Of a stretch of 34,509 nt of DNA, positions 9,956-34,509 are shown in pieces. The notes under the pieces were generated by a model that was given only the letters and a program-made list of their open reading frames with translations, made no database searches and was not told the DNA's origin. This DNA comes from a crenarchaeote SCGC AAA261-N23 (GTDB taxonomy: Archaea > Thermoproteota > Thermoprotei > Gearchaeales > Gearchaeaceae). Both the position numbers and the translations under genes were made by a program. The stretch is from positions 1 through 34,509 of the forward strand of contig AQVQ01000007.1 in assembly GCA_000375685.1 (NCBI GenBank). Direction: 5' to 3'. Positions within the stretch are counted from its first letter, which is position 1. Every line of letters begins with the position of its first letter.

Positions 9956-11761
9956 TTAATCAAAATAGTAATATTCTCCTTTCTCTTTTTGCAACCTATC
10001 TAAATACGATCCTATCTTGTTTATTCTTGGTCTATTAGTTTTTGGATCCCTTCTGAAAGTAATTCCTACATCCTTTAAGAATAAGTTAAAGCCTTTCTTA
10101 AGTGAATAAGGTCCCTTTGCATATCCTTGAAAACCTGGTCTGCCCAAGAATACCATTATTGAGTCTGCTGAAAAATCCTGAATTATTAAATCATGTTCAA
10201 CAACTATCACCAGTTTCGAAAATGTTTGTGCGTATTTCCTGATAAGTTTTGCCACAGCCAATCTTTGTTCTATATCCAAAAAAGCACTTGGTTCATCAAG
10301 CAAGTAAATATCTGAATCTTTAAGAAAAGTTGCTGCAACCATTAATGCTTGTTTCTCTCCGCCGCTTAATTCGCTTATTTTCCTATCAAAAATTTGATCA
10401 ATTCTTAAGGGATAAATTATTTCATCTTTTATCCACTCATCGTTTAAGTAGTTTTTATTTAAATTATACAACATTTCTTTTACTTGCAAATTTTCGTTTT
10501 CAAAGGAAAAAACTTGGGGCTTATAACTTATCTTAGGATTTCCTTCAAAAGTGTAGATTGATCCTTCCTCAGGGTTAATTTCTCCTACAATTGTTCTAAC
10601 AAATGTAGTTTTCCCTATCCCATTTTGACCCAAGATTCCTATGACTTCTCCTTTCATAGCAAATCCACTTTCAACATTCAATGTAAAGTCGCCAAGCTTT
10701 ATTTTTAAATCTGTCCACTCCATAAACTTATACTTTTCTTGTTCATTTCTCTCCAGCGGTTTCAAGCTAAACTTTATCGGAGTTTTTCTCCATCGAATGT
10801 TTTCAGCAGGAAGATATCCTTCAAAGTATGTATTTATAGCTGTTCCAGTAGGATAAGGTAATGAAACTATTCCATATACTTTAGGTTTTCCATATATTAT
10901 ACAAATTGAATCGCATAGATAATCTAGTACGCTTAAATCATGTTCAACTAATAAAATGGTTTTATTTTTAGATATTAACATATCAAGTAGCTTTACTAAG
11001 TTCAATCTTTGGTATGAATCCAAGTAGCTACATGGCTCATCAAGCATGTATACATCCGCATCTCTCAAAGTACAAACTGCTATCGAAAACCTTTGTAATT
11101 CGCCACCGCTCAAATCCTTTATATTTTTTTGATAAATTAAACTTAAATCCAAATATTCAGATATTTCATCTAATTGTTTGTTAATGTCAACATATTCAAG
11201 TATCTTCTTTACCTGTCCATGGAGTTGCTTTGATATGTTAAAAATTTCTTGAATTTTTATGGATACTTTAATTTTTCCATTATAAAGATCGTTCAAGTAC
11301 CTTTGTATTTCCTTCCCCCTGAATCTCTCTAATATTTCATCTACTTCAACCTCTCTATCTAGTATGCCTAAGTTTGGCTTTATTTTTCCTGCCAAAATAT
11401 TGAGTGCTGTAGACTTCCCAGATCCATTCATTCCAATTATTCCTACTGCTCTTCCATATCTAGGTGTAGGTATTCCAAAAAGTCTAAATGAGTTTATACC
11501 ATATTGGTGTATACAAGGAATGCTTGGTTCGCTTGCTAAATTAACTATTTCTATAGCATGAAAAGGACATTTCTCGACACATATTCCGCATCCTATGCAT
11601 CCTACTTCATTTATTACTGCTTTACCTTGTTCATCTAACCATACTATGTTGTTTCCAGCCCTTACAATAGGACAAAATCTATTACATTCAAAGTTACATT
11701 CATTCGATTTACAGTATTCCCTTTCAACTATTGCTATTCTTATTTTACTAGCTACTTTCAA
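9956..11761 (-). CDS. ABCE1 / RNase L inhibitor-like ribosome recycling ATPase
   Basis: 601 residues. The N-terminal iron-sulfur domain has Cys17/22/26/30 and Cys55/58/61/65 (CIGCGICVEKCP). Two ABC domains follow, with Walker A motifs GMNGSGKS (about 110-117) and GQNGIGKT, and signatures LSGGELQRF and LSGGEKQAL. ABCE1 splits ribosomes after termination in archaea and eukaryotes. No membrane segment is present. The start is TTG 11761, overlapping the zinc-ribbon gene by 14 nt. The first 136 nt belong to the inverted repeat and recur at the right edge. Confidence 0.96.
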   Translation of the reverse strand: MKVASKIRIAIVEREYCKSNECNFECNRFCPIVRAGNNIVWLDEQGKAVINEVGCIGCGICVEKCPFHAIEIVNLASEPSIPCIHQYGINSFRLFGIPTPRYGRAVGIIGMNGSGKSTALNILAGKIKPNLGILDREVEVDEILERFRGKEIQRYLNDLYNGKIKVSIKIQEIFNISKQLHGQVKKILEYVDINKQLDEISEYLDLSLIYQKNIKDLSGGELQRFSIAVCTLRDADVYMLDEPCSYLDSYQRLNLVKLLDMLISKNKTILLVEHDLSVLDYLCDSICIIYGKPKVYGIVSLPYPTGTAINTYFEGYLPAENIRWRKTPIKFSLKPLERNEQEKYKFMEWTDLKIKLGDFTLNVESGFAMKGEVIGILGQNGIGKTTFVRTIVGEINPEEGSIYTFEGNPKISYKPQVFSFENENLQVKEMLYNLNKNYLNDEWIKDEIIYPLRIDQIFDRKISELSGGEKQALMVAATFLKDSDIYLLDEPSAFLDIEQRLAVAKLIRKYAQTFSKLVIVVEHDLIIQDFSADSIMVFLGRPGFQGYAKGPYSLKKGFNLFLKDVGITFRRDPKTNRPRINKIGSYLDRLQKEKGEYYYFD

Positions 11762-12005
11762 AGTATTCCAATGAATCCTTGTAAAGCTCCTCTAATAAAA
11801 GTTTTTCTTCTTCCCTCGTTTTTACTTCTTCAGGTGAAGATACAGCTATTTCTTTAGATCTCTTAGAGGTTTGCTTCTTAGGAACAATAACTTTGGTTTG
11901 TTTCGTTGCCTTTTTTGTATGGCCACAGTTTTTGCATACAAAAACTACGTATGATTTTCTTTTTTCTGGTATCATTACTCCCCCACATTTACTGCAAAAC
12001 TCCAT
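11748..12005 (-). CDS. Zinc-ribbon protein, RpoM/TFIIS N-terminal-ribbon-like
   Basis: 85 residues. Cys4, Cys7, Cys24 and Cys27 (FCSKCGG and VCKNCGH) form one zinc ribbon like the N-terminal ribbon of RPB9/TFS. It is followed by a Lys/Thr-rich linker and an acidic Glu-rich tail. Archaeal TFS is about 110 residues with a second, catalytic C-terminal ribbon; that ribbon is missing, so transcript-cleavage activity is not expected. It overlaps the start of the ABCE1 gene, suggesting co-expression. The AT-rich tract about 30 nt upstream (tttttaaatt) could be its own TATA box. The function is open. Confidence 0.7.
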   Translation of the reverse strand: MEFCSKCGGVMIPEKRKSYVVFVCKNCGHTKKATKQTKVIVPKKQTSKRSKEIAVSSPEEVKTREEEKLLLEELYKDSLEYFESS

Positions 12006-12040
12006 TGGATAGATTAAAAATATTAGATGGAATTTAAAAA

Positions 12041-12118
12041 TTATTCTTCAAATTCCTCCAGCTCTTCTAGTTCCTCTAATTCTTCAAATTCCTCTAATTC
12101 TTCAAATTCTTCCTCCAT
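12041..12118 (-). CDS. Candidate 25-residue acidic microprotein
   Basis: Too short for the ORF track. An ATG-to-TAA frame encodes 25 residues, 17 of them Glu, with a Phe or Leu at every third position from residue 5 to 23 (a Phi-E-E unit repeated seven times). Leu is written tta, tta, cta and ctg, and Glu as gaa or gag, so synonymous positions vary while the protein pattern holds, which argues for coding. An in-frame TAA lies 15 nt upstream. It sits 35 nt before the zinc-ribbon gene and has a TATA-like element at about -33. No known homologue is recalled; translation is unproven. Confidence 0.5.
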   Translation of the reverse strand: MEEEFEELEEFEELEELEELEEFEE

Positions 12119-12146
12119 TTTTGCTTTAATTTATTTAATATTAAAG

Positions 12147-12156
12147 GCTTATAAGC
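12147..12156. promoter_or_regulatory. Palindromic TATA element GCTTATAAGC between divergent genes
   Basis: A perfect 10-bp palindrome whose centre lies about 30 nt before the plus-strand ATG 12182 and 33 nt before the minus-strand ATG 12118. It could serve as TATA box in both directions. The identical 10-mer recurs before tenA at 16345-16354. Right-arm copy: 33979-33988. Confidence 0.5.
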
Positions 12157-12181
12157 ATTTCGTAAATTAATAAATATTTCC

Positions 12182-12571
12182 ATGATATTAATTTGGGTAG
12201 ATGAGACCAATAGGAAGGGCTATGAAGTTTTCCTATCTTTAATAAAAAAGAAAAGGAAAGTAGAGCTAGTTTTTGAACAAGATGGAAAGTTTTATGAAGG
12301 ATATTTCGATCCAAAAATGCTTAGCAATAAGGATAAAGTGTATTATTCATTACCTAGTACTAAGAGGAAATTGGATAAAAGATTTAGGAAAATCATAAAA
12401 AATCCTAGAAAATCAGAAATTAAGAATTATTTCGTAAAAATAGCAATAGAAGCCTTTAATATGCCTTTGTTTTATTCGAAAATAAAGTACATAAGAAAGA
12501 AAGAAACAATAGCTAAAAAATTTCTCGATACTAATAAAATTATTTTGCTTTATAAGGATTATACATCTTGA
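12182..12571 (+). CDS. Conserved-looking hypothetical basic protein
   Basis: 129 residues, not recognised. It is Lys-rich and positively charged, starting MILIWVDETNRKGYEVFL, with no membrane helix, cysteine cluster or obvious catalytic motif. The middle (TKRKLDKRFRKIIKNPRKSE) is strongly basic and could contact nucleic acid. It ends one nucleotide before the THUMP gene, so the two are probably one transcript, hinting at an RNA-related role. Promoter: the palindromic TATA element about 30 nt upstream. Confidence 0.6.
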   Translation: MILIWVDETNRKGYEVFLSLIKKKRKVELVFEQDGKFYEGYFDPKMLSNKDKVYYSLPSTKRKLDKRFRKIIKNPRKSEIKNYFVKIAIEAFNMPLFYSKIKYIRKKETIAKKFLDTNKIILLYKDYTS

Positions 12572-12572
12572 A

Positions 12573-13142
12573 ATGAACTTTAAAAATTATCAGAAAGGCT
12601 TACTGGTTACAACTTATAAGGGAAGAGAGGATGATTGTGCTCAAGAAGCTTGGTATATTTTGTCTCAGTTGAATTACAGGGAGTTTGAAGTAGAAAAAGT
12701 TGGCTTACCTGGAATTCTTATTTTAAAAACAAATTTTGATCCAATTAAATGCTTAGAAGATTTCATAAACTATTCAAAAGAAAATATCTGGAGCATAAGA
12801 TATATACTGAAAGTTATTCCTCTTGAAATCATAGTTGAAGCTGATTATGAAAAAATTGCAGACGCTGCCGAATTTTTATCCGAAAAAATTGAAGAAAATT
12901 CAACTTACAGGATAACCGTTAATAATCGTTCCTCACCTTTGAATTCAAAGGAAATAATCTTCAAGACTGCTGAGAGGATAAAAAGGAAGGTAGACCTTAC
13001 TAAATACGATTACGAAGTATTGATTGAAATAATAGGTAAGATAGCAGGAGTTTCAGTTTTAAAGAGAGATCAAGTATTTTCTTTACACAAAGCAAGGGAA
13101 AGAAGCGTTAAAGAAATAACTGGAGAAGATAAAAATCAATAA
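12573..13142 (+). CDS. THUMP domain protein, Tan1-like (tRNA acetylation cofactor candidate)
   Basis: 189 residues. The C-terminal half (TYRITVNNRSSPLNSKEIIF through IIGKIAGVSVL) matches the THUMP RNA-binding domain. The N-terminal part (GLLVTTYKGREDDCAQEAWY) resembles archaeal relatives of yeast Tan1, which assists N4-acetylcytidine formation in tRNA. No catalytic domain is attached, so it probably acts as an RNA-binding adaptor. It is convergent with cgi121, overlapping by 7 nt. The location among tRNA-modification and translation genes supports the call. The Tan1 assignment is inferred from pattern, not alignment. Confidence 0.75.
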   Translation: MNFKNYQKGLLVTTYKGREDDCAQEAWYILSQLNYREFEVEKVGLPGILILKTNFDPIKCLEDFINYSKENIWSIRYILKVIPLEIIVEADYEKIADAAEFLSEKIEENSTYRITVNNRSSPLNSKEIIFKTAERIKRKVDLTKYDYEVLIEIIGKIAGVSVLKRDQVFSLHKARERSVKEITGEDKNQ

Positions 13143-13667
13143 TACCAGTCAACACTTGAAATTTTGGTAAGCGTTTCTTTTTCAATATCGTTTGTTTTTA
13201 AATTATAAATTTTAATTAATTCTTCTTTTCTTTTCTCAAAAGAATTTATTTCCTCATCTATTACTTTAAGCTCGTTATTTTTGACCAAATTTTCAATTTT
13301 TCTTATTACTTTAGATTTATCCTTGTCGCAAGCGAATATTATAACTTTATCTGTATCTTTATTTACACCTATTATCGAGATTGCTTCAAAAATTTGCCTT
13401 TTCCCAGTCAATCTTAGCAGTACTTCAACAGATTTATCCTTAGCTATGTTTCTTTTCCTTTCAAATGACCTGTAAGTCCTATATATTGAAGATAGAATTT
13501 GTCTTAAGGAAACTATTCGATTTAAATTTACTACTTGTAAAATTTCTGTGCTATCTTCATTTTTATTAGCTATAGCATTTATTAGATTTGTTATATTATC
13601 TTTGTTTATGTTGCATGCTGTTATTCCTACCCATGCATCATAATCTTTAATGAAAAAATAGCATCAT
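13136..13667 (-). CDS. cgi121: KEOPS complex subunit Cgi121, frame interrupted at a T6 tract
   Basis: The ORF track shows only the last 91 residues from a TTG. The frame is open far upstream (ILQVVNLNRIVSLRQILSSI and LLRLTGKRQIFEAISIIGV), matching Cgi121, which binds the tRNA 3' end for t6A synthesis. That frame has no usable start. An ATG at 13667 overlaps the nac stop as ATGA but runs in another frame. Dropping one base from the T6 run (plus-strand A6, 13653-13658) joins them as MMLFFIKDYDAWVGITAC, about 176 residues in total, a normal length. Alternatives are a sequencing error, an unusual start codon or slippage. Both repeat arms carry the same run. Confidence 0.75.
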
Positions 13668-14026
13668 TTCTTTCTAGCTTGGGCTAATAATATGGCTGAA
13701 GCAATATCTCCTTCTGTCTCTTTTAAAGCCTGTTCAGCTTCTTCTTTAGATACACCAGCTTTTTCCATAACCAAGTTTACATCTTCCTCTGTAGGTTTAT
13801 ATTCTGATGCTTTTCTTTCTTCTTTTATTTCTTCTTCTGATTCAGCAAATATTTGGTATATTTTCTGTCCGCTTACGTTGGTTATCATCACCTGAGGGTT
13901 TATTAGCCTCAGAGTTTTATCTTTAAATTTTATGTTTACTTCTTCAACATTTTCCAAGTTCTGAAAAGAAACGCCCATTCTCTGTAGCATTCTAATAGTT
14001 TCTCTGTTCATTCCTCTACGATACAT
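13664..14026 (-). CDS. nac: Archaeal nascent polypeptide-associated complex protein
   Basis: 120 residues: an N-terminal basic stretch and NAC domain (about 10-65, containing VEEVNIKFKDKTLRLINPQV), an acidic linker, and a C-terminal UBA-like domain (PTEEDVNLVMEKAGVSKEEA, then EGDIASAILLA). This is the layout of archaeal NAC, a ribosome-associated chaperone homologous to eukaryotic alpha-NAC that shields nascent chains. The stop overlaps the cgi121 ATG, so the two genes are probably co-translated. Confidence 0.95.
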   Translation of the reverse strand: MYRRGMNRETIRMLQRMGVSFQNLENVEEVNIKFKDKTLRLINPQVMITNVSGQKIYQIFAESEEEIKEERKASEYKPTEEDVNLVMEKAGVSKEEAEQALKETEGDIASAILLAQARKK

Positions 14027-14103
14027 GATTAACTAATTGATAAATTAGCTATTAAATTAAAAAAGTTAAAAAGCTTCATAAAAAGTTTAGAAATAAACTT
14101 TAC

Positions 14104-14502
<399 letters not shown>

Positions 14503-14531
14503 CTTAATTTTTTTGTATATTAGCTATTATT

Positions 14532-14577
14532 TTATACATTATATTATCTATTCAATCGATTCTTTTTTAATGTATAA
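14532..14577. repeat. AT-rich 10-bp inverted repeat beyond the tnpB remnant
   Basis: TTATACATTA (14532-14541) and TAATGTATAA (14568-14577) are perfect reverse complements separated by 26 bases, just downstream of the PUA gene on its strand. It may be a transcription end or transposon scar. At this AT content chance is possible. Right-arm copy: 31558-31603. Confidence 0.35.
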
Positions 14578-14604
14578 TAACTTCAAAACATGTGTATTTT
14601 TTTA

Positions 14605-15081
14605 TCATATGGCTAGTTTCCTAATCTTGACCGCAGTGCCTCTCTTCATAACCATCATTTCCTCTCCGCTCAAAACAGTCCTCCCAACTCCTATTACATT
14701 ATTATTTTCATCCACTATGATAACTTCGCTACCTGCCTCCAATTTAGGTTCAACTTTCTTTACATGCTTTACTAAAACTTTCCTTAAATCTTTGATTAAA
14801 CTGATAGAACTATTATCAACTTGAACTACATACTGAAAATTATTCATGTATTTGATCAAATTTTTAGCAGCTTCTATACTTGGGACTATGAATCCATCAG
14901 ATGATCTCAATGTAAGATAAGGTTTTTTATCTAGAAAGACGTATTTTATCTTTCCTGTCTTTTTTGAGTATTTAATTTCCATTCTATTTTGCAAGCCTGC
15001 AGGAAATAAGGCCTCGCCTGCACCCATTCCGAACTGGTAATCTGCAATTCTTTTTAGTATTCTGTAAGGGTCTAAACTCAT
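14605..15081 (-). CDS. PUA domain RNA-binding protein (COG1370-like)
   Basis: 158 residues. The C-terminal about 80 residues (VDNSSISLIKDLRKVLVKHV through VIGVGRTVLSGEEMMVMKRG) form a PUA domain, found in tRNA and rRNA modification enzymes. The N-terminal half (DYQFGMGAGEALFP) matches the small archaeal PUA proteins related to the C-terminal region of archaeosine tRNA-guanine transglycosylase. No catalytic domain is present. A role in RNA modification or ribosome biogenesis is inferred. It is divergent from mbf1 across a 121-bp AT-rich gap. Confidence 0.8.
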   Translation of the reverse strand: MSLDPYRILKRIADYQFGMGAGEALFPAGLQNRMEIKYSKKTGKIKYVFLDKKPYLTLRSSDGFIVPSIEAAKNLIKYMNNFQYVVQVDNSSISLIKDLRKVLVKHVKKVEPKLEAGSEVIIVDENNNVIGVGRTVLSGEEMMVMKRGTAVKIRKLAI

Positions 15082-15202
15082 TAAATATATTATTCTGAAA
15101 ATAAGAAATAAAGCGTAAGCAAAACTACTAACTTTCTCTTTAAATTAAGGACAAGGCTTTCAATAGCTGTAAAGTATATTTTCTTATTTGAGTATTTAAT
15201 AC

Positions 15203-15682
15203 TTGTTGAGCTGCGAAATTTGTGGAAAGAGGTTAGTGAATAGAAACATAATTATAATAGGGAAGGCTAAACTAATTGTTTGTGATGATTGTAAAAGATT
15301 TGGTAAGCCTGCAAGCTTCGTAGATAATAAGCAAGCAAAACCTAAACCGGTTTCAAATTTTATTAAGCCCAAGAAAGTAATTACAACCAATATACCTGAG
15401 GTAAACGTAAGAGAAGATTATGCTGAAGTTATAAGAAAAGCAAGGGAGAATTTGGGAATAACTCAGGATATTCTAGCTTCTTCTGTGGGAGAAAAACTCT
15501 CAATAATAAAGAAAATAGAAGCAGGAAAAATGAAGCCTACTATAGATCTTGCTAAAAAGCTCGAGCGTTTTTTAAAAATAAACTTGATTGAAATAGAATC
15601 CAATGTTGAATACGCTGAGAAAAAAGCTTCAAAATCAGACATTACAGTTGCTGATGTACTTGATATAAAAGATGGAGACTAG
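15203..15682 (+). CDS. mbf1: Archaeal multiprotein bridging factor 1 (MBF1)
   Basis: 159 residues: an N-terminal zinc ribbon (Cys4, Cys7, Cys27, Cys30), a basic linker, and a Cro/C1-type helix-turn-helix (ARENLGITQDILASSVGEKL, IKKIEAGKMKPTIDLAKKLE). This is the archaeal MBF1 architecture; archaeal MBF1 has been linked to translation. The start is TTG: an in-frame TAA ends 3 nt before it. TTG 15206 is an alternative. An AT-rich gtatatttt about 28 nt upstream suits a leaderless transcript. The tfe gene follows after 37 nt. Confidence 0.92.
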   Translation: MLSCEICGKRLVNRNIIIIGKAKLIVCDDCKRFGKPASFVDNKQAKPKPVSNFIKPKKVITTNIPEVNVREDYAEVIRKARENLGITQDILASSVGEKLSIIKKIEAGKMKPTIDLAKKLERFLKINLIEIESNVEYAEKKASKSDITVADVLDIKDGD

Positions 15683-15719
15683 TTAAGTTAATTAAAAGGT
15701 TATAAAAATACATATCTAA

Positions 15720-16259
15720 ATGGTTTCATCTGAAGAAAAAAGATATATTGATAAGGTCATCAGGCTCCTTTTAAGACCTGAGGCAAGTAAGATAGCTTTA
15801 GCTATCTTAGAAAAAAGTGATGCAACAGAAGAATGGCTTACTAAAAAAACGGACATGAAATTAAGCGTAATAAGGAAGATTTTATACGACATGCATGAAT
15901 TAGGTTTGATAGATTTTAAAAAAGAGAGAGACGAAAGAACAAGTTGGTATATTTACCATATAAACTTCAAATATGAAAACTTCAACAAAATCATATACGA
16001 TAGGCTAAAATATATCTTGGATAAAAAGCTAAAAGTAAGATTACAATATGAGCTTTCACACAGTTTTTATGAATGTCCTAAGCATAAAAAACTATTTACA
16101 GAAGAAGAAGCATTACAATACAATTTTATATGTCCCTATGATGAATGTGGAATGGTTATGCTCCACAAAAAAAATCAACATGTAATAGATAAGCTAAACA
16201 AGTACATACAAATAATAGAAAAAATATTAGAATTAGCAAAAGGAAAAGATAAATTATAG
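15720..16259 (+). CDS. tfe: Transcription initiation factor TFE alpha subunit
   Basis: 179 residues. The N-terminal winged helix (about 1-85, with IARE-like IALAILEKSDATEEWLTKK and LYDMHELGLIDF) and the C-terminal ribbon and helix match archaeal TFE alpha, which aids promoter opening with TBP and TFB. The ribbon is atypical: Cys119 and His122 (CPKH) replace the usual first Cys pair, and Cys138/Cys143 are spaced by four residues rather than two. Metal binding may be altered. The last base of the TAG stop is the first base of the tRNA. Confidence 0.93.
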   Translation: MVSSEEKRYIDKVIRLLLRPEASKIALAILEKSDATEEWLTKKTDMKLSVIRKILYDMHELGLIDFKKERDERTSWYIYHINFKYENFNKIIYDRLKYILDKKLKVRLQYELSHSFYECPKHKKLFTEEEALQYNFICPYDECGMVMLHKKNQHVIDKLNKYIQIIEKILELAKGKDKL

Positions 16260-16332
16260 GGCCGGTGGTCTAGCCTGGTGGGATGTCGCCCTTACGAGGC
16301 GAAGGTCCCCGGTTCAAGTCCGGGCCGGCCCA
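16259..16332 (+). tRNA. tRNA-Val (anticodon UAC)
   Basis: A 74-nt cloverleaf folds without mismatch in the acceptor stem (GGGCCGG / CCGGCCC). The anticodon stem is TCGCC/GGCGA with loop CTTACGA, giving anticodon TAC, which reads GUA valine codons. The T arm is CCCGG-TTCAAGT-CCGGG and the D stem has two G-U pairs. The discriminator is A and CCA is not encoded. The high stem GC in an AT-rich genome indicates a thermophile. No intron is present. It shares base 16259 with the tfe stop. Confidence 0.95.
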
Positions 16333-16344
16333 AAATTAAAACTC

Positions 16345-16354
16345 GCTTATAAGC
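16345..16354 (+). promoter_or_regulatory. GCTTATAAGC TATA-like palindrome upstream of tenA
   Basis: Same 10-bp palindrome as at 12147-12156, centred about 37 nt before ATG 16387. This leaves room for a leader of about 10 nt. Right-arm copy: 29781-29790. Confidence 0.45.
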
Positions 16355-16386
16355 AGAAATAAATAGTTACTTGAAATTTCCCCTTT

Positions 16387-17037
16387 ATGTTATCTAAAAA
16401 GCTTTGGGCATATATAGAGGATATTTTTAGCTCTATTATCTCCCATCCTTTTATAAAAGGGTTGACAGATGGAACCCTCGAAGAAGAAAAATTCAGATAT
16501 TATATAATCCAAGATTATTTATATCTTAGAGAGTTTAGCAGAGCTTTGGCAATACTTTCATCCAAAGCAGAAATACTAAACGAATCTTTGCTTTTCGCAT
16601 CCCATGTTCAAGATGTTTTTAAAGTAGAAAGAAGCTTACACGAATATTTCATTTCTAAATGGGGTATAAGCAGTGATTTATACAAACCTTCTCCAACCAA
16701 TTTGCTGTATACTTCATTTTTAATATCAACCACCATAGCAAAACCATACTATGAAGGTGTTGCAGCTGTTCTTCCATGTTATTGGATATACATGGAAGTT
16801 GGAAAAGAACTGATTAGAAAAGGTTCACCAAATGAGCTTTATCGAAAATGGATAGAAACATATGGAGGAGAAGAGTATGAAAAAGGAGTTAGAGAGGTTA
16901 TTAAGATAATTGATAGATTTAATCTAAATGGTCAACAAGAAAAGGAGGTATTTAAGAATTTTAGAATTTGCTCAATCTTCGAATACATGTTCTGGGATTC
17001 AGCTTATAGAATTGAAAAATTTCCTTTTGATTTCTAG
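16387..17037 (+). CDS. tenA: TenA family thiaminase II-type protein
   Basis: 216 residues, all-helical, with the TenA active-site set: Asp43 in IQDYLYL, Cys131 in LPCYWIYME, and Glu199 in [10 protein letters not shown]. Cys at this position marks the TenA_C class, which hydrolyses degraded thiamin pyrimidines to salvage HMP. No other thiamin gene is adjacent and no TPP riboswitch is seen. Its end overlaps the convergent M24 peptidase by 4 nt. Confidence 0.92.
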
Positions 17038-18080
17038 CTAAGTATAGGGGAGGGCCAGTAACTATCCAAACTCACAGCTTTTCCATTTGAATCGATATAA
17101 ACATTACTTTCAAGTCTAACTCCAAATTTTCCTGGCAAATAGATACCTGGTTCTATAGTAAATACCATGCCTTTCTTCAACTCTTTTTTATAAAGGCCGT
17201 TAATGAATGGTTCTTCATGAACTTCTAGACCTAGACCATGTCCTGTTCTATGAATAAAATAGTTTCCATAGCCTTTCTTAGTTATAACACTTCTTGCAAT
17301 TTCATCTAAATCACTTGCAAGAATACCATCCTTCGATGCTAGTATAGCTTCGTCATGGGCTTCTTTTACGATTTCATATATTTTGAAAAACTCATTGTAA
17401 TTTGGATTACCTAAAGAGTATGTTCTAGTTAGATCCCCAAAGTATTCATTATAAGTTGCACTAACGTCAATTACGATAATGTCTCCTCTTTTAATACTTT
17501 TAGAAGAATGTCTCCAATGAGGTATTGCTGAATTTTCAGCAAATTGAATTAACAAATTCATAGGATTTGCATTCCTCTTAAGTATTTCCTGATAGATGTA
17601 TGAAGCAAGTTCATTCTCAGTTATTCCTTCTTTAATTTTATCCTCTGTCTCTTTTATGCTATCTTCTATAATTCTAACAGCTTTACTTATGTTCGCTAAT
17701 TCTTCTTCATCTTTGATAACTCTCATCTCTCTAACAACATCATCAATAACTGAAATCTCAATTTCCTTTGCAAACTTTTTTAGGATTAAATAGTATTTTA
17801 TTGGCATATTTTCTTCAGTGCCAACCTTTAAAGAGCTTCCTTGAATTATCCTTTTAAGATAATCCAAAGGATTTTCATTATCTGTGTAAGCGAAATAGTT
17901 TATTCCTTTTCCTTTGATTTTTAGTTCATCGAGCTTAGGTACTACAACAGTTGCATCTTCATTTTTAAGATCTATAATTAAAGTACAGAATCTTTCATAA
18001 GTCTCTATAGTTGCTCCTGTCAAATACCTAAAATTCGCTCCTGGGAAAATTAAGGCAAAATCCAAATCTTTTTCTTTAAG
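17034..18080 (-). pseudogene. 5'-truncated Xaa-Pro peptidase (M24) copy at the repeat junction
   Basis: From the second copy's residue 11 to its end the sequence is identical to the intact gene at 28025-29101. Upstream of that point the reading frame meets unrelated sequence with an in-frame TAG and no ATG, so the first ten residues and the natural promoter are missing. The 343-aa ORF in the track starts at an internal TTG (MDFALIFPG). All metal ligands survive, so a shortened protein could fold if expressed, but loss of the native start makes that doubtful. Confidence 0.88.
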
Positions 18081-28024: not shown

Positions 28025-29101
28025 ATGAGTAGAATAAGAAAGCTCATTGAAAAGCTTAAAGAAAAAGATTTGGATTTTGCCTTAATTTTCCCAGGAGCGA
28101 ATTTTAGGTATTTGACAGGAGCAACTATAGAGACTTATGAAAGATTCTGTACTTTAATTATAGATCTTAAAAATGAAGATGCAACTGTTGTAGTACCTAA
28201 GCTCGATGAACTAAAAATCAAAGGAAAAGGAATAAACTATTTCGCTTACACAGATAATGAAAATCCTTTGGATTATCTTAAAAGGATAATTCAAGGAAGC
28301 TCTTTAAAGGTTGGCACTGAAGAAAATATGCCAATAAAATACTATTTAATCCTAAAAAAGTTTGCAAAGGAAATTGAGATTTCAGTTATTGATGATGTTG
28401 TTAGAGAGATGAGAGTTATCAAAGATGAAGAAGAATTAGCGAACATAAGTAAAGCTGTTAGAATTATAGAAGATAGCATAAAAGAGACAGAGGATAAAAT
28501 TAAAGAAGGAATAACTGAGAATGAACTTGCTTCATACATCTATCAGGAAATACTTAAGAGGAATGCAAATCCTATGAATTTGTTAATTCAATTTGCTGAA
28601 AATTCAGCAATACCTCATTGGAGACATTCTTCTAAAAGTATTAAAAGAGGAGACATTATCGTAATTGACGTTAGTGCAACTTATAATGAATACTTTGGGG
28701 ATCTAACTAGAACATACTCTTTAGGTAATCCAAATTACAATGAGTTTTTCAAAATATATGAAATCGTAAAAGAAGCCCATGACGAAGCTATACTAGCATC
28801 GAAGGATGGTATTCTTGCAAGTGATTTAGATGAAATTGCAAGAAGTGTTATAACTAAGAAAGGCTATGGAAACTATTTTATTCATAGAACAGGACATGGT
28901 CTAGGTCTAGAAGTTCATGAAGAACCATTCATTAACGGCCTTTATAAAAAAGAGTTGAAGAAAGGCATGGTATTTACTATAGAACCAGGTATCTATTTGC
29001 CAGGAAAATTTGGAGTTAGACTTGAAAGTAATGTTTATATCGATTCAAATGGAAAAGCTGTGAGTTTGGATAGTTACTGGCCCTCCCCTATACTTAGCTA
29101 G
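28025..29101 (+). CDS. Xaa-Pro aminopeptidase/prolidase family metallopeptidase (M24), intact copy
   Basis: 358 residues: an N-terminal creatinase-like domain (1-125) starting [20 protein letters not shown], then the pita-bread catalytic domain. Metal ligands are Asp215 and Asp226 ([17 protein letters not shown]), His291 (TGHGLG), Glu320 (TIEPG) and Glu334 (RLES). It cleaves Xaa-Pro bonds or related dipeptides. The first 30 nt, exactly ten codons, are unique; from codon 11 the sequence lies in the repeat and is identical to 17034-18080. Colinearity with the amidohydrolase operon shows this is the native copy. Confidence 0.92.
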
Positions 29102-29748
29102 AAATCAAAAGGAAATTTTTCAATTCTATAAGCTGAATCCCAGAACATGTATTCGAAGATTGAGCAAATTCTAAAATTCTTAAATACCTCCTTTTCTTGT
29201 TGACCATTTAGATTAAATCTATCAATTATCTTAATAACCTCTCTAACTCCTTTTTCATACTCTTCTCCTCCATATGTTTCTATCCATTTTCGATAAAGCT
29301 CATTTGGTGAACCTTTTCTAATCAGTTCTTTTCCAACTTCCATGTATATCCAATAACATGGAAGAACAGCTGCAACACCTTCATAGTATGGTTTTGCTAT
29401 GGTGGTTGATATTAAAAATGAAGTATACAGCAAATTGGTTGGAGAAGGTTTGTATAAATCACTGCTTATACCCCATTTAGAAATGAAATATTCGTGTAAG
29501 CTTCTTTCTACTTTAAAAACATCTTGAACATGGGATGCGAAAAGCAAAGATTCGTTTAGTATTTCTGCTTTGGATGAAAGTATTGCCAAAGCTCTGCTAA
29601 ACTCTCTAAGATATAAATAATCTTGGATTATATAATATCTGAATTTTTCTTCTTCGAGGGTTCCATCTGTCAACCCTTTTATAAAAGGATGGGAGATAAT
29701 AGAGCTAAAAATATCCTCTATATATGCCCAAAGCTTTTTAGATAACAT
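29098..29748 (-). CDS. tenA: TenA family protein, right-arm copy
   Basis: The translation is identical to 16387-17037, including Asp43, Cys131 and Glu199. The upstream GCTTATAAGC element is retained, so this copy should be expressible if the duplication is real. It is convergent with the intact M24 gene, overlapping by 4 nt. Confidence 0.9.
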
Positions 29749-29802
29749 AAAGGGGAAATTTCAAGTAACTATTTATTTCTGCTTATAAGCGAGTTTTAAT
29801 TT

Positions 29803-29876
29803 TGGGCCGGCCCGGACTTGAACCGGGGACCTTCGCCTCGTAAGGGCGACATCCCACCAGGCTAGACCACCGGCCC
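29803..29876 (-). tRNA. tRNA-Val (UAC), right-arm copy
   Basis: Exact reverse-complement copy of 16259-16332, with the same one-base overlap with the tfe stop codon. Two identical tRNA-Val(UAC) genes would be unusual in a small archaeal genome and are a test for whether the repeat is genuine. Confidence 0.93.
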
Positions 29877-30415
29877 TATAATTTATCTTTTCCTTTTGCT
29901 AATTCTAATATTTTTTCTATTATTTGTATGTACTTGTTTAGCTTATCTATTACATGTTGATTTTTTTTGTGGAGCATAACCATTCCACATTCATCATAGG
30001 GACATATAAAATTGTATTGTAATGCTTCTTCTTCTGTAAATAGTTTTTTATGCTTAGGACATTCATAAAAACTGTGTGAAAGCTCATATTGTAATCTTAC
30101 TTTTAGCTTTTTATCCAAGATATATTTTAGCCTATCGTATATGATTTTGTTGAAGTTTTCATATTTGAAGTTTATATGGTAAATATACCAACTTGTTCTT
30201 TCGTCTCTCTCTTTTTTAAAATCTATCAAACCTAATTCATGCATGTCGTATAAAATCTTCCTTATTACGCTTAATTTCATGTCCGTTTTTTTAGTAAGCC
30301 ATTCTTCTGTTGCATCACTTTTTTCTAAGATAGCTAAAGCTATCTTACTTGCCTCAGGTCTTAAAAGGAGCCTGATGACCTTATCAATATATCTTTTTTC
30401 TTCAGATGAAACCAT
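29876..30415 (-). CDS. tfe: TFE alpha subunit, right-arm copy
   Basis: Identical to the 15720-16259 product, including the Cys-His ribbon pair. A second identical general transcription factor gene would be redundant in dosage terms. Confidence 0.9.
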   Translation of the reverse strand: MVSSEEKRYIDKVIRLLLRPEASKIALAILEKSDATEEWLTKKTDMKLSVIRKILYDMHELGLIDFKKERDERTSWYIYHINFKYENFNKIIYDRLKYILDKKLKVRLQYELSHSFYECPKHKKLFTEEEALQYNFICPYDECGMVMLHKKNQHVIDKLNKYIQIIEKILELAKGKDKL

Positions 30416-30452
30416 TTAGATATGTATTTTTATAACCTTTTAATTAACTTAA

Positions 30453-30932
30453 CTAGTCTCCATCTTTTATATCAAGTACATCAGCAACTGTAATGTCTGA
30501 TTTTGAAGCTTTTTTCTCAGCGTATTCAACATTGGATTCTATTTCAATCAAGTTTATTTTTAAAAAACGCTCGAGCTTTTTAGCAAGATCTATAGTAGGC
30601 TTCATTTTTCCTGCTTCTATTTTCTTTATTATTGAGAGTTTTTCTCCCACAGAAGAAGCTAGAATATCCTGAGTTATTCCCAAATTCTCCCTTGCTTTTC
30701 TTATAACTTCAGCATAATCTTCTCTTACGTTTACCTCAGGTATATTGGTTGTAATTACTTTCTTGGGCTTAATAAAATTTGAAACCGGTTTAGGTTTTGC
30801 TTGCTTATTATCTACGAAGCTTGCAGGCTTACCAAATCTTTTACAATCATCACAAACAATTAGTTTAGCCTTCCCTATTATAATTATGTTTCTATTCACT
30901 AACCTCTTTCCACAAATTTCGCAGCTCAACAA
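30453..30932 (-). CDS. mbf1: MBF1, right-arm copy
   Basis: Identical to the 15203-15682 product, with the same TTG start and the same 37-nt spacing to tfe. Confidence 0.9.
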   Translation of the reverse strand: MLSCEICGKRLVNRNIIIIGKAKLIVCDDCKRFGKPASFVDNKQAKPKPVSNFIKPKKVITTNIPEVNVREDYAEVIRKARENLGITQDILASSVGEKLSIIKKIEAGKMKPTIDLAKKLERFLKINLIEIESNVEYAEKKASKSDITVADVLDIKDGD

Positions 30933-31053
30933 GTATTAAATACTCAAATAAGAAAATATACTTTACAGCTATTGAAAGCCTTGTCCTTAATTTAAAGAGA
31001 AAGTTAGTAGTTTTGCTTACGCTTTATTTCTTATTTTCAGAATAATATATTTA

Positions 31054-31530
31054 ATGAGTTTAGACCCTTACAGAATACTAAAAAGAATTGCAGATTACCA
31101 GTTCGGAATGGGTGCAGGCGAGGCCTTATTTCCTGCAGGCTTGCAAAATAGAATGGAAATTAAATACTCAAAAAAGACAGGAAAGATAAAATACGTCTTT
31201 CTAGATAAAAAACCTTATCTTACATTGAGATCATCTGATGGATTCATAGTCCCAAGTATAGAAGCTGCTAAAAATTTGATCAAATACATGAATAATTTTC
31301 AGTATGTAGTTCAAGTTGATAATAGTTCTATCAGTTTAATCAAAGATTTAAGGAAAGTTTTAGTAAAGCATGTAAAGAAAGTTGAACCTAAATTGGAGGC
31401 AGGTAGCGAAGTTATCATAGTGGATGAAAATAATAATGTAATAGGAGTTGGGAGGACTGTTTTGAGCGGAGAGGAAATGATGGTTATGAAGAGAGGCACT
31501 GCGGTCAAGATTAGGAAACTAGCCATATGA
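31054..31530 (+). CDS. PUA domain RNA-binding protein, right-arm copy
   Basis: Identical to the 14605-15081 product. The C-terminal PUA domain and N-terminal DYQFGMGAGEALFP motif are unchanged. Confidence 0.8.
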   Translation: MSLDPYRILKRIADYQFGMGAGEALFPAGLQNRMEIKYSKKTGKIKYVFLDKKPYLTLRSSDGFIVPSIEAAKNLIKYMNNFQYVVQVDNSSISLIKDLRKVLVKHVKKVEPKLEAGSEVIIVDENNNVIGVGRTVLSGEEMMVMKRGTAVKIRKLAI

Positions 31531-31632
31531 TAAAAAAATACACATGTTTTGAAGTTATTATACATTAAAAAAGAATCGATTGAATAGATAATATAATGTA
31601 TAAAATAATAGCTAATATACAAAAAAATTAAG

Positions 31633-32031
<399 letters not shown>

Positions 32032-32108
32032 GTAAAGTTTATTTCTAAACTTTTTATGAAGCTTTTTAACTTTTTTAATTTAATAGCTAATTTATCAATT
32101 AGTTAATC

Positions 32109-32471
32109 ATGTATCGTAGAGGAATGAACAGAGAAACTATTAGAATGCTACAGAGAATGGGCGTTTCTTTTCAGAACTTGGAAAATGTTGAAGAAGTAAA
32201 CATAAAATTTAAAGATAAAACTCTGAGGCTAATAAACCCTCAGGTGATGATAACCAACGTAAGCGGACAGAAAATATACCAAATATTTGCTGAATCAGAA
32301 GAAGAAATAAAAGAAGAAAGAAAAGCATCAGAATATAAACCTACAGAGGAAGATGTAAACTTGGTTATGGAAAAAGCTGGTGTATCTAAAGAAGAAGCTG
32401 AACAGGCTTTAAAAGAGACAGAAGGAGATATTGCTTCAGCCATATTATTAGCCCAAGCTAGAAAGAAATGA
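32109..32471 (+). CDS. nac: Archaeal NAC, right-arm copy
   Basis: Identical to the 13664-14026 product, with NAC and UBA-like domains. The stop overlaps the ATG of the cgi121 copy. Confidence 0.93.
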   Translation: MYRRGMNRETIRMLQRMGVSFQNLENVEEVNIKFKDKTLRLINPQVMITNVSGQKIYQIFAESEEEIKEERKASEYKPTEEDVNLVMEKAGVSKEEAEQALKETEGDIASAILLAQARKK

Positions 32472-32999
32472 TGCTATTTTTTCATTAAAGATTATGATGC
32501 ATGGGTAGGAATAACAGCATGCAACATAAACAAAGATAATATAACAAATCTAATAAATGCTATAGCTAATAAAAATGAAGATAGCACAGAAATTTTACAA
32601 GTAGTAAATTTAAATCGAATAGTTTCCTTAAGACAAATTCTATCTTCAATATATAGGACTTACAGGTCATTTGAAAGGAAAAGAAACATAGCTAAGGATA
32701 AATCTGTTGAAGTACTGCTAAGATTGACTGGGAAAAGGCAAATTTTTGAAGCAATCTCGATAATAGGTGTAAATAAAGATACAGATAAAGTTATAATATT
32801 CGCTTGCGACAAGGATAAATCTAAAGTAATAAGAAAAATTGAAAATTTGGTCAAAAATAACGAGCTTAAAGTAATAGATGAGGAAATAAATTCTTTTGAG
32901 AAAAGAAAAGAAGAATTAATTAAAATTTATAATTTAAAAACAAACGATATTGAAAAAGAAACGCTTACCAAAATTTCAAGTGTTGACTGGTATTATTGA
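32468..32999 (+). CDS. cgi121: KEOPS subunit Cgi121, right-arm copy with the same T6 frame interruption
   Basis: ATG 32468 overlaps the nac stop. The extra base lies in the T6 run 32477-32482, as in the left copy, and the frame then continues to 32999. If both arms were independent molecules, a shared indel would argue against random sequencing error; if one arm is an assembly copy it adds no information. Confidence 0.75.
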
Positions 33000-33562
33000 T
33001 TTTTATCTTCTCCAGTTATTTCTTTAACGCTTCTTTCCCTTGCTTTGTGTAAAGAAAATACTTGATCTCTCTTTAAAACTGAAACTCCTGCTATCTTACC
33101 TATTATTTCAATCAATACTTCGTAATCGTATTTAGTAAGGTCTACCTTCCTTTTTATCCTCTCAGCAGTCTTGAAGATTATTTCCTTTGAATTCAAAGGT
33201 GAGGAACGATTATTAACGGTTATCCTGTAAGTTGAATTTTCTTCAATTTTTTCGGATAAAAATTCGGCAGCGTCTGCAATTTTTTCATAATCAGCTTCAA
33301 CTATGATTTCAAGAGGAATAACTTTCAGTATATATCTTATGCTCCAGATATTTTCTTTTGAATAGTTTATGAAATCTTCTAAGCATTTAATTGGATCAAA
33401 ATTTGTTTTTAAAATAAGAATTCCAGGTAAGCCAACTTTTTCTACTTCAAACTCCCTGTAATTCAACTGAGACAAAATATACCAAGCTTCTTGAGCACAA
33501 TCATCCTCTCTTCCCTTATAAGTTGTAACCAGTAAGCCTTTCTGATAATTTTTAAAGTTCAT
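32993..33562 (-). CDS. THUMP domain Tan1-like protein, right-arm copy
   Basis: Identical to the 12573-13142 product. It is convergent with the cgi121 copy, overlapping by 7 nt. Confidence 0.75.
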   Translation of the reverse strand: MNFKNYQKGLLVTTYKGREDDCAQEAWYILSQLNYREFEVEKVGLPGILILKTNFDPIKCLEDFINYSKENIWSIRYILKVIPLEIIVEADYEKIADAAEFLSEKIEENSTYRITVNNRSSPLNSKEIIFKTAERIKRKVDLTKYDYEVLIEIIGKIAGVSVLKRDQVFSLHKARERSVKEITGEDKNQ

Positions 33563-33563
33563 T

Positions 33564-33953
33564 TCAAGATGTATAATCCTTATAAAGCAAAATAATTTTA
33601 TTAGTATCGAGAAATTTTTTAGCTATTGTTTCTTTCTTTCTTATGTACTTTATTTTCGAATAAAACAAAGGCATATTAAAGGCTTCTATTGCTATTTTTA
33701 CGAAATAATTCTTAATTTCTGATTTTCTAGGATTTTTTATGATTTTCCTAAATCTTTTATCCAATTTCCTCTTAGTACTAGGTAATGAATAATACACTTT
33801 ATCCTTATTGCTAAGCATTTTTGGATCGAAATATCCTTCATAAAACTTTCCATCTTGTTCAAAAACTAGCTCTACTTTCCTTTTCTTTTTTATTAAAGAT
33901 AGGAAAACTTCATAGCCCTTCCTATTGGTCTCATCTACCCAAATTAATATCAT
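33564..33953 (-). CDS. Hypothetical basic protein, right-arm copy
   Basis: Identical to the 12182-12571 product; not recognised. It lies one nucleotide upstream of the THUMP gene, and the palindromic TATA element is at 33979-33988. Confidence 0.6.
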   Translation of the reverse strand: MILIWVDETNRKGYEVFLSLIKKKRKVELVFEQDGKFYEGYFDPKMLSNKDKVYYSLPSTKRKLDKRFRKIIKNPRKSEIKNYFVKIAIEAFNMPLFYSKIKYIRKKETIAKKFLDTNKIILLYKDYTS

Positions 33954-34016
33954 GGAAATATTTATTAATTTACGAAATGCTTATAAGCCTTTAATATTAA
34001 ATAAATTAAAGCAAAA

Positions 34017-34094
34017 ATGGAGGAAGAATTTGAAGAATTAGAGGAATTTGAAGAATTAGAGGAACTAGAAGAGCTGGAGGAATTTGAAGAATAA
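34017..34094 (+). CDS. Candidate 25-residue acidic microprotein, right-arm copy
   Basis: Same Phi-E-E triplet-repeat frame as 12041-12118 (ATG to TAA), read here on the plus strand. Confidence 0.5.
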   Translation: MEEEFEELEEFEELEELEELEEFEE

Positions 34095-34129
34095 TTTTTA
34101 AATTCCATCTAATATTTTTAATCTATCCA

Positions 34130-34387
34130 ATGGAGTTTTGCAGTAAATGTGGGGGAGTAATGATACCAGAAAAAAGAAAATCATACGTAGTTTTTGTATG
34201 CAAAAACTGTGGCCATACAAAAAAGGCAACGAAACAAACCAAAGTTATTGTTCCTAAGAAGCAAACCTCTAAGAGATCTAAAGAAATAGCTGTATCTTCA
34301 CCTGAAGAAGTAAAAACGAGGGAAGAAGAAAAACTTTTATTAGAGGAGCTTTACAAGGATTCATTGGAATACTTTGAAAGTAGCTAG
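34130..34387 (+). CDS. Zinc-ribbon RpoM/TFIIS-like protein, right-arm copy
   Basis: Identical to the 11748-12005 product, with Cys4/7/24/27 and no C-terminal ribbon. It overlaps the start of the second ABCE1 copy. Confidence 0.7.
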   Translation: MEFCSKCGGVMIPEKRKSYVVFVCKNCGHTKKATKQTKVIVPKKQTSKRSKEIAVSSPEEVKTREEEKLLLEELYKDSLEYFESS

Positions 34388-34509
34388 TAAAATAAGAATA
34401 GCAATAGTTGAAAGGGAATACTGTAAATCGAATGAATGTAACTTTGAATGTAATAGATTTTGTCCTATTGTAAGGGCTGGAAACAACATAGTATGGTTAG
34501 ATGAACAAG
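34374..34509 (+). CDS. ABCE1 N-terminal portion, right-arm copy, cut by window edge
   Basis: Begins at TTG 34374 and covers 45 codons, including the first iron-sulfur cysteine set, before the sequence ends. Whether a complete second ABCE1 gene exists cannot be seen. Confidence 0.85.
   Translation, partial: MKVASKIRIAIVEREYCKSNECNFECNRFCPIVRAGNNIVWLDEQ

Follow-up and report, generated by a model that had tools for sequence, protein, structure and literature searches.

A conserved acidic microprotein gene ahead of ABCE1 in Thermoproteota, with a possible role in translation

What could a protein of 25 residues, most of them glutamate, be doing ahead of the gene for the ribosome-recycling ATPase ABCE1? 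The question is raised by a stretch of 34,509 nucleotides from the crenarchaeote SCGC AAA261-N23 (contig AQVQ01000007.1, assembly GCA_000375685.1), the whole of which we call the window. On its minus strand a very small open reading frame (the micro-ORF) is followed, 35 nucleotides (nt) after its stop codon, by a zinc-ribbon gene and then by the ABCE1 gene (Table 1). Read from 12118 to 12041, the micro-ORF translates to MEEEFEELEEFEELEELEELEEFEE and a stop: 25 residues, including 17 glutamates, with seven consecutive units of a hydrophobic residue and two glutamates (Phi-E-E). GAA and GAG codons, and likewise TTA, CTA and CTG, are mixed inside the repeat. In all these respects, as in the position at the head of the zinc-ribbon/ABCE1 set, the locus agrees with an original prediction made from the sequence alone. 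The plus strand of the same stretch contains stop codons. Our preferred answer, which we hold at close to an even chance, is that the product is an ancient, trans-acting microprotein of the Thermoproteota, probably disordered, that would serve ABCE1 or the translation machinery; its partner we infer from the gene neighbourhood.

The micro-ORF is not a product of chance, since in the 1.2 Mb source assembly (fragmented; 67% complete, 176 contigs) the Phi-E-E pattern is confined to this locus and a copy of the locus at the contig end, with 0 matches for a reversed control. The same kind of small ORF was sought before ABCE1 in relatives, and it is present in many. A genome of the same genus (G001) encodes MEEEFEELEEFEDLEELEEFEEFEE, again of 25 amino acids (aa), differing from the window by eight synonymous changes and two conservative amino-acid replacements; one of the same family (G002) encodes MAEEEELEEFEEFEEFEELEEFEEF, also of 25 aa; and two of the same order (G003 and G004) carry Trp-containing versions of 57 and 64 aa. 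In all four the micro-ORF lies directly ahead of the zinc ribbon on the same strand. The original prediction had named loss or frame-breaking of the ORF in close relatives with intact flanks as evidence against it, and in G001 and G002 the frame is intact. Across 12 same-length pairs of relatives, a few of which share a member and so are not all independent, the proportion of synonymous differences (pS) is 0.83, near saturation, and that of nonsynonymous differences (pN) is 0.022, giving a pN/pS of 0.03 (Fisher p 2e-81). The flanking bases have diverged in most of these pairs, and many copies are preceded at the right distance by a GGAGGTG-like, Shine-Dalgarno-like site. Selection thus acts on the peptide, as had been proposed, and the micro-ORF is a protein-coding microgene under strong purifying selection. 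We considered and rejected an accident of simple repeats: synonymous change is saturated with almost no amino-acid change, and the reversed-pattern controls in the searches described below gave one match and none.

The 88 distinct archaeal versions range from 18 to 68 aa (median 31 aa), with a net charge of -20 and 66% Glu; Lys and Arg are nearly missing. Of the 88, 73 end in Trp and five in Phe, whereas Trp makes up 11.6% of the other positions, and outside the window's genus the terminal Trp is near-invariant; Trp and Phe are mostly spaced by 4, 5 or 6. The original prediction saw in the window's version a helix-like strip of Phe and Leu. This did not hold up for an alpha helix: the period-three arrangement has a moment of only 0.14 at 100 degrees and reaches 1.0 only at 120 degrees, the angle of a 3-10 helix, and we infer that the product is more likely an unfolded chain.

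The carboxy terminus might suggest another function, the delivery of iron-sulfur (Fe-S) clusters. Clients of cytosolic iron-sulfur assembly (CIA) carry the targeting signal [LIM]-[DES]-[WF]-COOH, and eukaryotic ABCE1 requires the Yae1-Lto1 adaptor, whose yeast Lto1 ends in an essential Trp (PMC10623007); the signal is read largely by Cia2 (PMC13082141). By analogy with Lto1, the microprotein's -EEW terminus would bring a Cia2/MIP18-type carrier to ABCE1, an enzyme with two Fe-S clusters. Most archaeal versions do end in E-E-W-COOH, and MIP18-family proteins occur in 6/6 genomes tested; the likeness to the Lto1 tail lies in the C-terminal [DE]-[WF] and in ABCE1 as the client in yeast. However, positions -2 and -3 are each Glu in 85 of the 88 versions (with Ile at -3 in one), where the CIA signal has an aliphatic residue at -3. 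The window genus also lacks the C-terminal aromatic, as the window and G001 versions end in FEE, and the G003 version ends in EEEE. The signal was absent from the archaeal homologues of the clients examined (PMC10623007), and our alignment of archaeal MIP18 to Cia2 stopped short of the pocket residues. Among the explanations weighed here, we consider this one the least probable.

To see how far the micro-ORF extends, we used three kinds of search, which agree with one another. Among 151 relatives searched by DNA pattern, a Trp-Glu3-Trp-Glu2 pattern matched in 32 (one match for the reversed control) and a looser aromatic pattern in 65 (none for the control). In the DNA upstream of zinc-ribbon homologues, the micro-ORF was found in family f7 and, as their immediate neighbour, in f1, f2, f6, f8, f11, f12, f14 and f18. 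In f20, f26, f31-f33, f38, f39 and Bathyarchaeota it adjoins ABCE1 itself, with no room for or sign of a ribbon between them; in f20, f26, f33 and f39 the pattern matches stand directly ahead of ABCE1. An unbiased scan of 60 ABCE1 loci, covering up to 1.5 kb upstream, the gene and up to 4.5 kb downstream (some loci being cut by contig ends), found the micro-ORF in 20, always upstream, on the ABCE1 strand in 18 and on the opposite strand in two (f16/f29); it was found inside or downstream of ABCE1 in 0 of the 60. With all searches pooled, the micro-ORF stands at ABCE1, with or without a zinc ribbon between, in 21 of the 40 families sampled. It is as persistent a neighbour of ABCE1 as the zinc ribbon or FBPase. 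In f23 it lies six to seven kb upstream on the same strand. In this family ABCE1 (L219 397-3171; also G103, G110, G117 and G131) is encoded by a frame of about 925 aa, of which about 320 aa form an intein-like insert inside the Fe-S cysteine motif; the boundaries, CIGCGI/CLDPNTPVV...LIVHN/CVKKCPF, come from G089, in which alone the insert sequence was read.

A three-Trp pattern searched across 84,980 species gave 64 loci, 51 of which we treated as archaeal. These fall in Thermoprotei, Bathyarchaeota, Desulfurococcaceae, Nezhaarchaeota, Methanomethylicota, Culexmicrobium, Calditenuaceae, a few Thermococcus and one Micrarchaeota. In 27 of the 51 an ABCE1 gene lies less than 1.5 kb downstream, with gaps mostly near 110 nt and mostly no zinc ribbon between; it lies upstream of the micro-ORF in three Desulfurococcaceae/Desulfurococcales; and in 21 no ABCE1 is on the DNA stretch available. 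Shared ancestry keeps the linkage counts from being independent trials, and Trp-rich versions are favoured by the Trp pattern. The linkage to ABCE1 is far above background. This argues against a housekeeping role unconnected to ABCE1, whether in the general chaperoning or buffering of basic proteins by an acidic chain or as a Dss1-like ligand of a ubiquitin-fold partner. Such a role would suit f4 and f7, in which the micro-ORF is unlinked to ABCE1 and apparently present in one copy per genome, and the acidic-Trp motifs of Dss1 do bind ubiquitin (PMC9381478), but we regard it as improbable.

The link to ABCE1 survives the loss of zinc-ribbon, THUMP or FBPase neighbours in different lineages, and we therefore place the likely partner in ABCE1-linked translation. 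The main rival, ahead of the acidic chaperone, a leader peptide and the Fe-S adaptor in that order, is a role at RNA polymerase through the zinc ribbon. Here the peptide would bind the ribbon, which resembles transcription factor S (TFS) and RPB9, or a polymerase lobe, and so modulate transcription, with ABCE1 a mere genomic neighbour. The window's ribbon scores 28.5 bits against Pfam Zn_ribbon_RPB9, over the cut-off. We rejected its identification as TFS itself, since the catalytic C-terminal ribbon is missing and the score against TFS_arch (TIGR01384) is 33.8 bits, under the cut-off of 64.75. A profile of the ribbon family is nearest to RPB9 and to RpoM-2 of structure 7OQY, presumably TFS4. 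Apart from the families in which micro-ORF and ribbon adjoin, the polymerase role gains from three loci (L135, L155 and L162) in which small zinc-ribbon or zinc-finger proteins carry an acidic-Trp tail in a single chain; two of these are LysW-like, in bacterial assemblies. However, f5 has a ribbon at ABCE1 without a micro-ORF there. The original prediction had offered basic ribosomal or RNA polymerase surfaces as possible binding sites, and the persistence of the ABCE1 link in lineages without the ribbon is why we favour translation over transcription. A polymerase role seems unlikely to us.

Several observations nevertheless weigh against our preferred reading. In genus g28 of f7 (G063 and G069) the micro-ORF stays beside the TFS/RPB9-like ribbon, with no ABCE1 on that stretch of contig; the true partner could thus be the ribbon, and with it RNA polymerase. 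Shared synteny may reflect inheritance rather than function. Trp is absent from the window version, which also lacks a C-terminal aromatic and has Phe or Leu at every third residue. In f5, Nitrososphaeria, Calditenuaceae and Thermococcus a similar ORF lies near AbrB/PhoU or PiT genes and not at ABCE1. Because of the low complexity, homology of such dispersed copies is not provable by sequence; for those in f5, Thermococcus and Nitrososphaeria it is judged by composition and pattern, and may partly be convergence.

The AbrB/PhoU-type setting is itself a second recurrent site: an acidic-aromatic ORF stands beside the gene for an AbrB-PhoU-like regulator in f5, f40, Nitrososphaeria and Calditenuaceae (L101, L102, L105, L106, L107, L125, L171, L159 and L258). 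Among the four Thermococcus genomes with pattern matches that the search covered (L149, L154, L173 and L180), the acidic-Trp ORF has a basic start, MQPPKKKK...WEEEEEWEEEEW, and in L173 and L180 it adjoins PiT/PhoU-type phosphate genes.

The usual location just upstream of the gene for a ribosome splitter also fits a leader peptide acting in cis, which the original prediction had offered as its alternative. In this model, one of intrinsic ribosome destabilisation, the acidic nascent chain would stall or destabilise the ribosome and so report recycling capacity to the ABCE1 gene, as MgtL does for mgtA; the likeness to MgtL-type leaders lies in a short acidic ORF, related to translation, upstream of a gene. 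In bacteria and eukaryotes, ribosomes are destabilised by runs of Glu at the N-terminus of the chain, but Pyrococcus furiosus has no bias against N-terminal acidic residues (PMC9718836); where acidic leaders cause stalling, it is relieved by the ABC-F ATPase EttA (PMC11282234). Compared with shuffled sequences, the window RNA has a somewhat better fold (z -2.5), but this is not conserved (z +1.3 in G001 and -0.4 in G002). In the window and in G001, TATA-like boxes, identified as sequence matches only, precede the micro-ORF as well as the zinc ribbon; those before the micro-ORF are TTTTTAA at -37 in G001, and TTATAA at -42 and TTTTTAA at -29 in G002. At about 35 nt ahead of the two starts in the window and G001, they fit separate, nearly leaderless transcripts, with the zinc ribbon apparently under a promoter of its own. 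MgtL acts in cis; the archaeal ORF, by contrast, is found in many positions and is conserved as protein, including a C-terminal Trp that a leader would not need. Conserved copies are also found downstream of ABCE1 in Desulfurococcaceae, on the strand opposite to it in f16/f29, and apart from it in f4 and f7; in f7, from which ABCE1 has moved away, they remain with the divergent THUMP gene (genus g13) or with both THUMP and ribbon (genus g28). A leader confined to action in cis does not account for these copies, and we think it very improbable.

Table 1. Features of the micro-ORF locus in the window
Feature	Position	Strand	Remarks
Acidic-aromatic microprotein gene (micro-ORF), 25 aa	12041..12118	-	Translation; intact 25-aa copies in G001 and G002; pN/pS 0.04 against G001
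Second, identical micro-ORF copy	34017..34094	+	In right arm of 6455-nt perfect inverted repeat
Zinc-ribbon protein, 85 aa	11748..12005	-	RPB9/TFS N-terminal ribbon only, without C-terminal ribbon; acidic C-terminal segment conserved
ABCE1/Rli1 ribosome-recycling ATPase	9956..11761	-	TTG start; overlaps end of zinc-ribbon gene; NF009945 780.5 bits, cut-off 469
Divergent THUMP-domain protein	12573..13142	+	Part of conserved neighbourhood; THUMP neighbour retained in f7, where ABCE1 has moved away
TATA-like box TTATAA	12149..12154	-	-36 of micro-ORF ATG; sequence match only
TATA-like box TTTTTAA	12034..12040	-	-35 of zinc-ribbon ATG; sequence match only; same place in G001, -32 in G002

By its profile score, the ABCE1 assignment is secure. 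The second copy of the micro-ORF lies in a perfect inverted repeat of 6455 nt (11626-18080 / 28055-34509), whose right arm stops exactly at the contig end and cuts ABCE1; the repeat, and hence the duplicate, is probably an assembly artefact. Where the repeat ends on its inner side, the boundary cuts the start of a peptidase-like ORF, which therefore has two lengths (17034-18065, 343 aa, and 28025-29101, 358 aa).

How might a trans-acting partner of ABCE1 work? The product would be a highly acidic chain (about -20) from its own small gene, with Phe and Leu in the window, Trp and Phe in most relatives, and usually a Trp at the end. It would stay unfolded, and its aromatics would fit into a hydrophobic pocket with basic residues around it. 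As partner we consider ABCE1 itself or the ABCE1-ribosome complex likeliest; there the peptide would tune recruitment, ATPase cycling or release, perhaps working like the eIF3j/Hcr1 acidic-Trp motif or the acidic-aromatic aP1 tail.

Searches for a known family gave no match in Pfam for the window micro-ORF at E 0.001, and even at E 10 none for five representative versions from the relatives, where composition bias limits the search. The representatives also had no match in NCBIfam or among PDB sequences, searches blunted by low complexity; Rfam gave none at gathering score, with only a sub-threshold match to SNORD20; and we found no description of such a family in the open-access literature. 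The case of this peptide, with pN/pS near 0.03, shows that strongly selected proteins are hidden by low-complexity filters. Judged by its sequences, the family is similar in style to known acidic-aromatic ligands, while having the defining features of none.

Dss1/Sem1 is small and acidic like the micro-ORF product, and disordered, as this product probably is. Without folding, its acidic-Trp motifs use paired Trp and negative charge to bind ubiquitin, and affinity rises with the number of Trp and acidic residues (PMC9381478). The Dss1 Trp pair is two or three residues apart, in a core WENNW, and Dss1 and the micro-ORF family have no sequence match; the family's aromatic spacing of 4 fits the Dss1 type, but the window has Phe or Leu every third residue. 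Dss1 is a eukaryotic protein of about 70-90 aa with a C-terminal helix. The archaeal stalk protein aP1 offers a comparison at ABCE1 itself: a conserved Phe in its flexible acidic tail docks in hydrophobic pockets of several translation factors, including aABCE1-ADP (PMC6791870). This precedent and that of eIF3j (below) make docking of the microprotein plausible. However, the aP1 tail is part of a folded, dimerising protein, with the pattern SEEEALAGLSALFG and no repeated (Phi-E-E)n, and its C-terminal hydrophobic motif (LSALFG type) is absent from the listed micro-ORF versions.

A further comparison is with eIF3j/Hcr1. Hcr1/eIF3j helps ABCE1 in ribosome recycling (PMC7196836), and Trp52 of eIF3j, with its flanking acidic residues, fills a hydrophobic pocket of eIF3b (PMC2824034). 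Like the micro-ORF family, eIF3j has a short acidic stretch with an aromatic anchor, but it is a larger protein with its own 40S-binding half, whereas the whole micro-ORF product has 18-68 aa and no sequence relation to it. To our knowledge, archaea lack the eIF3b-RRM, the known pocket of eIF3j. The Trp-centred acidic motif is present in the Trp-type relatives and absent in the window and G001, which have Phe and Leu and no Trp. A stronger claim, possible but on the unlikely side, is that the product is a stand-alone, phylum-wide ribosome-recycling cofactor, 25-60 aa of Glu and aromatics, which would bind ABCE1 or its ribosomal complex as the counterpart of the acidic-Trp arm of eIF3j. If so, few conserved proteins known would be simpler, and annotation would have passed it over on account of its small size and low complexity. 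What we describe is an apparently conserved, unannotated housekeeping microprotein in the archaeal lineage related to eukaryotes, tied to one of the few translation factors universal among archaea and eukaryotes. Should it bind ABCE1, archaea would have a recycling cofactor comparable to eIF3j, and the origin of the eukaryotic eIF3j arm would become testable.
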